Source: an uncultured Spartobacteria bacterium
GTDB taxonomy: Bacteria; Verrucomicrobiota; Verrucomicrobiia; Chthoniobacterales; Chthoniobacteraceae
Reading direction: 5' to 3'
Assembly (NCBI GenBank): GCA_903929475.1
Contig: CAIYUV010000052.1
Location: forward strand, 1-64,000
DNA length: 64,000 bases
The position numbers were made by a program, and so were the translations under genes. Below the pieces are notes generated by a model. It was not told where the DNA came from and did no database searches. It saw nothing but the letters and a program-made list of their open reading frames with translations. Below, in pieces: positions 2-25,470 of this stretch. How positions within the stretch are numbered: position 1 is the stretch's first letter; every line of letters begins with the position of its first letter.

Positions 2-2293
2 ATTTACCAGGGGGACAACTGGCCCGCCGAATACCGGGGAAAACTTTTCACGCTCAATCTCCACGGACGCCGGATGAATTGCGAACGCCTCGAACGCAAA
101 GGCAGCACTTACGTGGCGAAGCACGAGCCGGATTTCGCGCTCTTCGGCGACCCGTGGTTCCGAGGCATAGATCTCACGACCGGCCCCGACGGCGGCGTGT
201 ATGTCCTCGACTGGAGCGACGACGGCGAATGTCACGAAGAAGACGGCGTCCACCGCGAAAGCGGCCGCATTTACAAGATCACGTATGGGGAGGTGAAGAA
301 ACCGGACTTTGGGAGAAAGGGAGATCTCGCGGCGATGACGGACGAACAGATCACGACTCTCGCAATCGAAGGGAGCGTGTGGCACTCGCGCGTCGCTCTC
401 AGGCTACTCGCCGAGCGCACCGCAGACGCGAACATCGCGGCAGGAAGCCCGGAGGGCTTGGGGAAATTAGCCGGTGGTGAAACCACCGGATCAGCGAACA
501 AAACACAAAGCGCTCCGGCAGGTGCGCCGGAACGGGATGCCGATGCGAAAAAATCCAGCGCCCCATCCGGGGCGCGACCCGATGCGGGCGGCGATCCGGT
601 GGTTTCACCACCGGCTAATTTCCATCAGCCCTCCGGGCTGCTCGCACGGGTGCGCGAAGCAGTCGTGAACGCAACGGATACCCCAAAACGTTTACGCGCG
701 ATGTGGACGCTATACGCGATGGGAGGCTTCGATCACCATGCCTTTAAGCTCGCTAGAAGAGACCCAAATGAACACACGCAAGCATGGGGCATTCGGCTTT
801 ATGCAGACGTTCCACACCTATTTCCTAAGGAGCTTTTTAATGGCGGCCCCATCCCCTATCTTACGCCCTTCATGTTGCGTGCATTCGCAGGGGCGGCGCA
901 GAGTAAGACTTCGCTTACACTGGGCAATTCTAACAAAGAAGACTACAAGGTTCCGCATAGTTGGCTGGAATCCACTGCCGAAGACGAAATGTCCATAGTC
1001 ATTTATGACGTTCCAGCTGACGCTGATGAAGCTCTCGCGCTTGTGGTGTGGAGTGGCATGACCGCCGTGGAAAAAAACAAGCCCGGCTTTATCGCAAGAG
1101 ATGGCAAGCAAGTGAGGTCGCCGATTCTTCTCCGCTGTGTGTCGCATTACCTCGCTACCGCACACACCGGCTCCAATGAGGAGAATCTGAAAGCGCTGGA
1201 GATGCTGATGGAGGAATCAGGCGACAAGGGTGCCGCCCTCGCAAAGAGTATCGTCTTGGGAGTCAGCGACGCTTTGCGTGGAGTAAGGAAGTCGCCCCGC
1301 CCCCGCGCATGGCCCGATTTTTCCACCAAGGCCGTCGCTGCCAATCCAGAACTCGCCGACAAGGTGCGCGAGCTGAACGTCATCTTCGGCGACGGGCGCG
1401 CGCTCGACGAAATCCGCGCGCTCGCCCTCGATGGCAAGGCCGACCTCGCCACGCGGCGGCAGGCGGTTGAGTCGCTCATTTCCAGCAGCGACAGCGGGCT
1501 GCGCAGCATTTGCGAAAAGCTCGTCGGCAACGGCGACCTCACGCCCGTCGCCATCCGCGGCCTCGCCACATTCGATGATCCCGCCGCCGCCAAACTCGCC
1601 GTGAGAAACTGGGAGCGCCTCCGCGCCGACGCGCGCCCCGGCGTCATCGGCTCGCTGTGCTCACGCCCCGTTTTCGCGCAAGCGCTGCTCACCGCCATCC
1701 GCGCCGGAAAAATCGCCCGTGAAAATCTCACCGCCTACCACGCCCGCCAGATCGCCGCGCTCGGCGACGCCGCAGTTTCCGCCCTCCTCGCGGAAGTCTG
1801 GGGCGAAATCCGCACCACGCCCGACGACAAAAAACGCCGCATCACCGCACTGAAAACCGCGCTCACCCCCGACGTTCTGGCAAAGGCCGATATCGCAAAA
1901 GGACGCGCGCTTTTCACCCAGACTTGCGCCGCCTGCCACACGCTCTTCGACCTCGGCCAGTCCGGCGCGAACCTCGGCCCGAACCTCACCGGCAGCGGTC
2001 GCGCGAACCTCGATTACCTGCTGGAAAACATCGTGGACCCGAGCGCCGTCGTCCCCGCCGATTACAAGCTCAGCACCCTCACGCTCAAGGACGGGCGCGT
2101 GCTCAGCGGGTTCATCAGTGCGAAAAACGAACAGACCCTCACGCTCCGCACGATGACCGAAAACCAAACCCTCCCCACCGCCGACGTGACCAAGATCGAA
2201 GGCAGCCCACTTTCCCTCATGCCCGACGGCCTCCTCGACGCGCTCACCCAGGAACAAGTGCGCGACCTCTTCGGTTTTTTGATGACGAAGTGA
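2..2293 (+). CDS. PVC-type membrane-bound dehydrogenase / HEAT / haem c protein (5' partial)
   Basis: The frame is open from base 2, so the start lies outside the window; an internal ATG at 74 is not the true start. The visible part resembles the large Pirellula/Verrucomicrobium-type proteins (TIGR02604 dehydrogenase-like N-terminus, HEAT repeats, TIGR02603 haem domain). The first ~90 residues contain the end of a beta-propeller (GGVYVLDWSDDGE). Helical repeat sequence follows to about residue 625. The C-terminal domain has one c-type haem motif, CAACH (around base 1925), and a PDGLL..LT..QVRDLF-type end. Proteins of this family are periplasmic and thought to oxidise sugars or sugar derivatives, but the substrate cannot be read from the sequence. 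Residues encoded by bases 443-642 are a low-complexity Pro/Ala/Gly linker that interrupts a HEAT repeat and coincides with a palindromic element (separate entry). Confidence 0.85.
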   Translation: MYQGDNWPAEYRGKLFTLNLHGRRMNCERLERKGSTYVAKHEPDFALFGDPWFRGIDLTTGPDGGVYVLDWSDDGECHEEDGVHRESGRIYKITYGEVKKPDFGRKGDLAAMTDEQITTLAIEGSVWHSRVALRLLAERTADANIAAGSPEGLGKLAGGETTGSANKTQSAPAGAPERDADAKKSSAPSGARPDAGGDPVVSPPANFHQPSGLLARVREAVVNATDTPKRLRAMWTLYAMGGFDHHAFKLARRDPNEHTQAWGIRLYADVPHLFPKELFNGGPIPYLTPFMLRAFAGAAQSKTSLTLGNSNKEDYKVPHSWLESTAEDEMSIVIYDVPADADEALALVVWSGMTAVEKNKPGFIARDGKQVRSPILLRCVSHYLATAHTGSNEENLKALEMLMEESGDKGAALAKSIVLGVSDALRGVRKSPRPRAWPDFSTKAVAANPELADKVRELNVIFGDGRALDEIRALALDGKADLATRRQAVESLISSSDSGLRSICEKLVGNGDLTPVAIRGLATFDDPAAAKLAVRNWERLRADARPGVIGSLCSRPVFAQALLTAIRAGKIARENLTAYHARQIAALGDAAVSALLAEVWGEIRTTPDDKKRRITALKTALTPDVLAKADIAKGRALFTQTCAACHTLFDLGQSGANLGPNLTGSGRANLDYLLENIVDPSAVVPADYKLSTLTLKDGRVLSGFISAKNEQTLTLRTMTENQTLPTADVTKIEGSPLSLMPDGLLDALTQEQVRDLFGFLMTK
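443..642. repeat. 200-bp palindromic element inserted in frame in a coding gene
   Basis: Bases 443-492 and 593-642 are inverted repeats of 50 bp matching at 45 positions. Each arm holds two perfect hairpins with 3-nt loops: AAGCCC-GGA-GGGCTT (445-459) and CCGGTGGT-GAA-ACCACCGG (471-489) on the left; CCGGTGGT-TTC-ACCACCGG (596-614) and CAGCCC-TCC-GGGCTG (626-640) on the right. Between them are TCCGGC/GCCGGA (514-519, 526-531) and GCGCCCC-ATCC-GGGGCGC (558-575). The gene's reading frame stays open through the element. No target-site duplication is evident. The architecture resembles REP/BIME or MITE-like elements; no transposase is nearby. Confidence 0.85.
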
Positions 2294-2363: not shown

Positions 2364-2577
2364 TGGGCCAAAGGCCCAACCCATACCAGCCTAGGCCAGA
2401 GCGAGGAACGAGCGTCGGCCTAGGTTTGAAAAGAAAAACGGCAAGAGGGCTGAAGGCCCGATCCAACTTTATTTCCAAACGCTCTCAGAATGGTGCCGGG
2501 CTTTCAGCCCTTTGTCCGTGTGGGAACGCATTCCTTGGGCGTTGCCCAAGGCTGGTATGAATCCGGGCCGTTGGCCC
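2364..2577. repeat. REP-like cluster of short hairpins in the intergenic region before recN
   Basis: The stretch 2294-2746 has no gene. It contains a run of perfect short palindromes: TGGGCC-AAA-GGCCCA (2364-2378), CCTAGGCC...GGCCTAGG (2390-2424), an AGGGCTGAA / TTCAGCCCT pair (2446-2454 and about 2502-2511), CCTTGGGC-GTT-GCCCAAGG (2533-2551) and GGGCC-GTT-GGCCC (2565-2577). The 3-nt loops and GGGCTGAAGGCCC-style wording match the element inside the upstream gene. Further on, at about 2646-2682, is a small direct repeat of 'caatcacca'. The cluster could also stop or slow transcription leaving the upstream gene. Confidence 0.75.
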
Positions 2578-2746
2578 TCAAGCGCGACCTCGTATAAAGA
2601 ATGAGAGGCAGAGGCAGCGTCGCATTTCTTTGAATGTGAACACCGGAAACCAATCACCAATCACCAGTCACCAATCACAACTTCCTCCCGCAGCAAATCT
2701 CGCACACAAGCTTGCCTCTCCCCCCACACTCCGGCATTTCGCGCAG

Positions 2747-24374: not shown

Positions 24375-25470
24375 AAGAACCGGATGGTTTTTCGGGTTTT
24401 GGCGGTTCACTCGAAGGAAGCGAAGCAGGCGAATCCGTTGGTGCTTTTTGAACAGGCGTCGCTTCTGCTGTGGCCGCTGCTGCTGCGCGCTTCCACCAGT
24501 TGCTCCAATCGCGGTTGATTACATTTCCCGCACCAATCATCGCTAGCACGGCGACCGGGAAGAAGACGAATCCTGAATAATCGTGGTAAAGCCCCGTCGC
24601 GATTTTCGGATCCAAGAACCGCGCGAAAACCACCACGGAAAACACGCGCGCGAAATTGCCGAGAATCGCAAACAGCAGCGAACACCCAAACAGCACCATC
24701 CCGCGCAGCGGCGTGCGCATCGCAAAGTATGCGTAGAGCGCGGCCAGCGTGAGCATCGCCATCAGCGAACGGATTCCCGAGCAACCGCCCGCGACCTCCA
24801 GCGGTTCGAAGCGTCCGTCGAGTGAGATGATTTTGGCTCCTTCCGCGTGGATGCGGATGCCGCAGATCGAGGACAGTGTTTCAATGACGGCGGCAGTTTT
24901 TGACTGAAGCCCCGCCGTGCCCTGCACCACGCCGCCGATGGGAGTCATGAATAACAAAAACACACACGGAAAAAGCACGATGCGCGCGACCTTTTTGCCG
25001 TAGAGAAACATCACTCCGCCGTAGATCAGCGGTGGCAGTGCAAAAATCGTATATCGCCCCTCAATGCAGCGGACTCCCACCACAAAAAGCAGCACTCCCG
25101 CAGCCACCCACCATATCCCTGTATTCGACGGCTCCTTTGGCGCTGCGCGAAAATCCCGCCAACGCAGCAAGACGAGCAATAACGCCACGGGGATAATCCC
25201 TACGCAATGCTCTTGGTCGTTCTCCTCATTCCAACTCGCTGCAATCCACTGCGCCGAAGTCTGCGAAAGACTCTGAAACGCCTTCACCCCGAAATAAAAA
25301 TACCCCAGCACTGCCAGCAGGCACACACCCAGCGCACAAGCCCTCGGATTCGCCTTTGCCCACGTTAAAAAATTACGCCCCATCGCCCCGAAATCCGGGA
25401 AATCAAACATGCCACGATCCACGGAATCGCGGGAGTCTGCATCATTCTGGGGCTTGGTCTCATCAGCCAT
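24364..25470 (-). CDS. Exosortase (XrtA-family cysteine transpeptidase)
   Basis: The 368-residue integral membrane protein has about eight hydrophobic helices. It has the exosortase catalytic triad in order: Cys230 in VAGGCSGIRSL, Arg275 in GNFARVFSV and His296 in LYHDYSGFVFF. Exosortases are thought to cleave PEP-CTERM tails and join the protein to another molecule at the cell surface. The ATG at 25470 is preferred to a TTG 36 bases upstream. The N-terminal ~35 residues are acidic and the C-terminal ~40 are Pro/Ala/Lys-rich and probably cytoplasmic. A likely substrate is the PEP-CTERM protein at 42.0-42.7 kb. Confidence 0.9.
   Translation of the reverse strand: MADETKPQNDADSRDSVDRGMFDFPDFGAMGRNFLTWAKANPRACALGVCLLAVLGYFYFGVKAFQSLSQTSAQWIAASWNEENDQEHCVGIIPVALLLVLLRWRDFRAAPKEPSNTGIWWVAAGVLLFVVGVRCIEGRYTIFALPPLIYGGVMFLYGKKVARIVLFPCVFLLFMTPIGGVVQGTAGLQSKTAAVIETLSSICGIRIHAEGAKIISLDGRFEPLEVAGGCSGIRSLMAMLTLAALYAYFAMRTPLRGMVLFGCSLLFAILGNFARVFSVVVFARFLDPKIATGLYHDYSGFVFFPVAVLAMIGAGNVINRDWSNWWKRAAAAATAEATPVQKAPTDSPASLPSSEPPKPEKPSGSYDY

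Follow-up and report, generated by a model that had tools for sequence, protein, structure and literature searches.

The window (the whole analysed stretch of 64,000 nucleotides, from an uncultured lake bacterium) begins within a gene encoding a PVC-type haem-binding CxxCH protein (2..2293, + strand), the 5' part of which is missing, as the contig starts at base 1 of the window. The product is composed of a DUF7133 domain, a helical middle part, and a TIGR02603 cytochrome-c-like end (matches to TIGR02604/TIGR02603 and to cytochrome c); the gene belongs to an extensive set of paralogues and could be dispensable. Inside it lies an imperfect palindrome of 200 bases (443-642), and both these coordinates and the complementarity of its ends, 443-492 and 593-642, at 45 of 50 positions agree with the initial annotation. 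As also claimed there, the gene stays open through the element: the frame 2..2293 has 763 open codons and retains CxxCH, and the palindrome contributes an insert of 66 codons (443..640, + strand; residues 148-213 of the partial protein), GSPEGLGKLAGG...PPANFHQPSGL.

The ungapped core arms of the palindrome (446..492 and 593..639, no strand assigned) comprise 47 bases each, are 94% complementary, and are separated by 100 bases. Each arm contains two perfect hairpins with loops of three bases, just as described initially. The left arm starts with the outer hairpin AGCCC-GGA-GGGCT (446-458), followed by the conserved block GAAATTAGCC (463-472) and the inner hairpin CCGGTGGT-GAA-ACCACCGG (471-489), and the right arm mirrors this arrangement, with the inner hairpin at 596-614, the conserved block GGCTAATTTC at 613-622, and the outer hairpin at 627-639. 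Two further hairpins had been reported between the arms; in the centre (493..592, also without strand) one of them is perfect (GCGCCCC..GGGGCGC at ~557-574, of the CGCCCC..GGGGCG type), the other one, at ~511-526, being degenerate. The inner hairpin has two perfect matches in the window and none elsewhere in the same genome, with 0.02 matches expected in the window by chance at up to two mismatches. Folded as single-stranded DNA, the 200 bases yield -80.8 kcal/mol, compared with -40.5 +/- 3.7 kcal/mol for shuffled sequences (z -10.9).

In the protein alignment that had been proposed as a check, none of the 15 homologues, which come from the genus and the family, has the 66-residue segment. The spacing between a conserved Arg and the LRALW motif, counted on the alignment, is 28 residues in homologues such as L046, and subtraction of the 66 residues leaves 28 in the window protein as well. 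Related copies of the element, aligned to a longer piece of the window, mostly match it from ~443-449 to ~637-642. Both coding flanks evolve under purifying selection (omega of 0.05 and 0.15 in comparison with G007). Since the frame is open and the flanks are under selection, the insert is likely translated as part of the haem protein. According to the structure prediction, whose confidence is moderate overall (mean pLDDT 67.8), residues 151-209 have pLDDT <50 and lie between helices 126-148 and 212-223, and the 66-residue insert would hence form a disordered loop between two helices. The initial annotation had placed it within a HEAT repeat; the paired helices are indeed predicted, while no Pfam HEAT model matches the protein.

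At window positions 300-1320 (~330 residues), the protein is mostly 8-38% identical to its orthologues from G007 and G005, the ends being 95-100% identical, and the central segment of the gene has low GC3, 0.40-0.65 over much of its length, compared with 0.8-0.9. This centre of ~330 residues is a cassette-like hypervariable helical segment, and its hypervariability may account for the tolerance of the insert. Due to the same hypervariability, the window gene has no nucleotide-level empty site, and the junctions can be placed only to within a few bases.

A search of the genome and its relatives, suggested along with the alignment, revealed a dispersed multi-copy family, with about 14 diverged copies of the element in the genome of origin. 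Neither of the two conditions that the initial annotation had named as refuting its reading holds, as the homologues lack the insert and further genomic copies of the arms exist. The core motif GAAATTAGCCGG together with the inner hairpin is present in every one of the ten genomes from the genus (the own one and nine congeneric ones), with no matches for a reversed-pattern control, and the core motif is additionally found in five genomes of the class among 288 genomes sampled from the phylum. The fetched stretches contain 46 elements with paired left and right arms, that is, 40 short ones of 172-287 bp and six long ones of 636-731 bp. They share the order of parts: the outer hairpin, a gap of a few bases, GAAATTAGCCGG with the inner hairpin, a spacer, a G+C-rich hairpin, and then the mirror image. 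Almost every arm has TTAG (GAAATTAGCCGG) at the foot of the hairpin, and not a GTAG or CGTC tag. The stems of the outer hairpins differ among the copies yet remain paired (94%, compared with 60% for re-dealt halves and a maximum of 66% in 2000 shuffles), hence the hairpin is retained as a structure. Between the window copy and its closest full-length relatives, identity is no higher than 70-73%, which points to a diverse family with no recent burst.

Conservation drops to the background level immediately outside the outer hairpin, and neither a target-site duplication nor a conserved target sequence was found in the flanks beyond it; HUH transposition is not known to make a target-site duplication. 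In G008, several near-identical 172-bp copies (L175, L176, L181, and L186) have a 14-base outer flank, GATGGCTGGCTGAG, in common, which reflects either a longer element at these loci or a duplication of segments.

In all six long elements, a Y1_Tnp gene, scoring above the Pfam cut-off in each case, is located between the arms, namely, between the positions equivalent to the two central hairpins. Its product of 148 aa starts with MPSTHLSLHYH and has the motifs DH[VI]H, WQEGYG and, typically, Y[IV]xxQ[ED]EHH. Four out of five transposases score above the cut-off of NF033573, the NCBIfam model for IS200/IS605; with at most 22.6 bits against the cut-off of 80 for the RAYT model NF047646, they fall outside the RAYT group. 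TnpA_Y1 of subclass 1.2 have been described as having a median length of 148 aa and the motifs DH[IV]H, WQ, and Y---Q--HH (PMC6006769); these motifs and a length of ~148 aa are all found here, and the transposase of the long elements resembles this subclass in both respects. In the genome of origin, there is one long copy, whose transposase loses the frame near the C terminus (L133:3054-3602, G000:C236), and a further intact transposase gene (L028, in contig C165) is flanked by arms of the same type.

The short elements thus have no transposase gene and share their inverted repeats with a transposase-bearing long form, as do MITEs, although the target-site duplication usual for DDE-type MITEs is lacking, and the long elements, where a Y1 transposase is flanked by long terminal inverted repeats, have the structure of TIRtrons. 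The most plausible reading of the 200-bp unit is that of a MITE-like element without a transposase, derived from a small HUH (Y1, IS200-like) transposon, and, as the arms of the short and long elements are the same, the Y1 transposase probably mobilises the short ones in trans. Given these MITE and TIRtron features, save for the target duplication, and the absence of both the GTAG/CGTC tag and the RAYT signature, the family is a variant within known element types.

Among the 40 short elements, five loci, the window copy included, have the element in frame deep within a long open reading frame. Two of them, G000:C210 (L131) and G007:C2 (L140), carry it at one and the same position in an Eco57I-type restriction-methylase gene, just before the DPACGSGSF motif. 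The corresponding gene of G004 has no element, its flanking protein segments being about 89% and 96% identical; it also lacks some further local sequence around the insert. In G004:C155, the element is in frame in a gene of the aldehyde-dehydrogenase family, the G003 homologue being empty. In G002:C205, a probable in-frame insertion lies beside a partial second element in an N6-methylase-like ORF. Thus, the family occurs in frame in unrelated genes, those of the haem protein, the Eco57I-type enzyme, and the aldehyde dehydrogenase, and probably also of the N6-methylase, which is a property of the Rickettsia RPEs as well. Where in frame, its members encode 63-77 aa. ORFs running through the elements of L137, L157, L158, L171, L177, and L179 were not counted, as they resemble chance frames or genes that begin or end there. 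For most of the remaining copies, a rough scan of codon usage in the flanks suggests positions just beyond gene ends.

The Eco57I-type inserts of G000 and G007 differ by indels with a net length change of 6 nt, and the frame is thereby preserved. For this pair, omega is 0.66 in the insert, a value inflated by a misaligned stretch of 14 codons, compared with 0.05-0.10 in the flanks, and at the protein level the insert appears relaxed relative to its flanks. Because of the same 14-codon stretch, this omega was rejected as a sign of positive selection. Separately, the portion of the enzyme after the methylase core differs between L131 and L140.

Taking the data on the locus and on the family together, we consider it highly probable that the palindrome is a non-autonomous derivative of an HUH transposon, inserted in frame and carried as a disordered loop in the haem protein. 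The autonomous form of 640-730 bp would consist of the outer hairpin, the GAAATTAGCC block, the inner hairpin, the G+C-rich hairpin, the gene for the 148-aa IS200-like transposase, and then the same series of hairpins mirrored. Loss of the transposase gene would leave the palindrome of ~200 bp, which could still be mobilised in trans, with its hairpins being recognised in single-stranded form, and which would have inserted across the genus, mostly between genes. An intragenic copy would survive only if the number of added bases is a multiple of three and readthrough is possible, and the window copy would have entered the haem-binding protein in its variable helical part. The conserved block of the arm has a stop in one of the three frames only, and 65 out of 240 element frames (27%) are fully open; with one third of insertions being in frame, about 9% of random genic insertions would be tolerated. 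Many intergenic and few in-frame genic copies, as observed, are to be expected if insertion is followed by purifying selection. The initial reading of the locus as an analogue of the RPEs is thus largely right as to the mechanism, as a multi-copy palindrome of the mobile type is in frame here and absent from the 15 homologues.

Four other explanations were considered. The haem gene could be a dying pseudogene with a frame open by luck; it has many paralogues, and, by the above frame statistics, the same ~9% of random genic insertions would look alike. Nevertheless, the 763 open codons, the kept CxxCH, the omega of 0.05-0.15 on both sides in comparison with G007, and at least two further genes with the family in frame and with empty-site relatives make this unlikely.

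Slightly less probable still is an adaptive role, in which a flexible linker rich in Pro, Ala, and Gly, provided by the element, is retained for an improvement or change that it brings to the host protein. It would agree with the in-frame insertion common to two species in the Eco57I-type gene, where the frame is kept despite indels, and with the use of one left-arm reading frame, PEGxxKLAGG, in three out of four host genes. However, any coding insert is expected to maintain the frame, the Eco57I-type insert has diverged faster than the gene around it, with an omega far above that of the flanks (even if inflated by misalignment), the window insert is disordered by prediction, the insertion sites lie in variable segments, and the majority of copies are outside genes. 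Hence the suggestion in the initial annotation that such repeats act as donors of protein linkers, in the sense of a useful function, is not borne out: the data indicate tolerance, not benefit, and the inserts are probably neutral. A broader proposal, that elements moved by an HUH transposase of subclass 1.2 repeatedly bring stop-free, disordered stretches into genes of this genus, with selection retaining some as useful linkers, seems to us equally doubtful.

An assembly artefact, with the repeat joining unrelated contig ends or two paralogues, has to be kept in mind, as the data are MAGs, the host gene is at the contig end, and repeats are typical break points in metagenome assemblies. It is very improbable, as the two flanks give contiguous alignments with the same homologues, the spacing agrees after removal of the insert, both ends of the protein match one G007 orthologue at 95-100%, and the inner hairpins of the window copy are unique in the genome. 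Finally, splicing of the palindrome out of the mRNA or its bypass by the ribosome, conceivable for a hairpin so stable as a single strand, can be practically dismissed, as every deep genic case has an open frame, which would be needless if the segment were skipped.

The preferred reading, an in-frame insertion of a transposon derivative, has several known counterparts. The RPEs of Rickettsia are ~150-bp palindromic repeats found in frame within unrelated protein genes (PMC10969869). The present elements are similar to them in size (~200 bp), in being dispersed and in frame in unrelated genes, and in forming a tolerated extra segment; at the same time, they come from a different phylum, have a transposase-bearing long form, and are intragenic only in a minority of cases, in contrast to nearly half of the RPEs of R. 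conorii. The likeness would concern the way of working, and common descent is unlikely given the different phylum.

Closer in taxonomy are the REPs of the verrucomicrobium Opitutus terrae, which has the most intragenic GTAG repeats, in-frame REPs being known in several species (Di Nocera et al., 2013; PMC3733652). Thus, the novelty for Verrucomicrobia implied in the initial annotation does not hold, as intragenic REPs of O. terrae were published in 2013. Both systems feature palindromes in frame within verrucomicrobial genes and tied to Y1 transposases, but the GTAG/CGTC REPs mostly encode 20-30 aa and have a GTAG or CGTC tag, whereas the present elements encode 63-77 aa, have the TTAG foot, and are composites of ~200 bp with mirrored double-hairpin arms. 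Similarly to TIRtrons/TIRYTs, a Y1 transposase gene lies between inverted repeats, and transposase-less copies occur in the genome; however, TIRYTs mostly belong to subclass 2.1 (~238 aa with an HTH tail), in contrast to the 148-aa transposase with the subclass-1.2 signature found here, and many TIRYT repeats have GGGGWSAS in common (PMC3733652). The IS605-derived PATEs of Haloquadratum are comparable as core-deleted, transposase-less HUH elements with near-terminal palindromes, yet they are archaeal and have other sequences, and the consulted part of their description reports no in-frame insertion (PMC3119063). We found no literature on Chthoniobacter with IS200 repeats.

According to its description, subclass 1.2 is near to IS200 yet lacks IS properties; it is mostly cyanobacterial and Bacteroidetes, of low copy number, and as a rule has no typical terminal structures (PMC6006769). 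In the present family, the transposase lies between hairpin arms and related short copies are dispersed. The family suggests that TnpA_Y1 of subclass 1.2 are able to head a mobile palindromic family. In-frame palindromic insertions are hereby extended to a second verrucomicrobial lineage, with the transposase-bearing parent in hand, so that the step from a selfish element to a protein segment becomes directly testable, and the Eco57I-type gene provides a comparative case, in which two species share the insertion site and the frame is kept through indels.

Two more repeat structures were noticed. In L016:1362-1510 (G000:C203 near 25100-25230), outer hairpins GAGTCCCGGAGGGACTG are present as short tandem units without the remaining element. 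Close downstream of the haem gene, at window 2364-2580, there is a second palindromic repeat family, GCCC[AT]AGGCTGGTATGA, with 20 copies in the genome, whose motifs flank two other Y1 transposase genes (L029 and L031).
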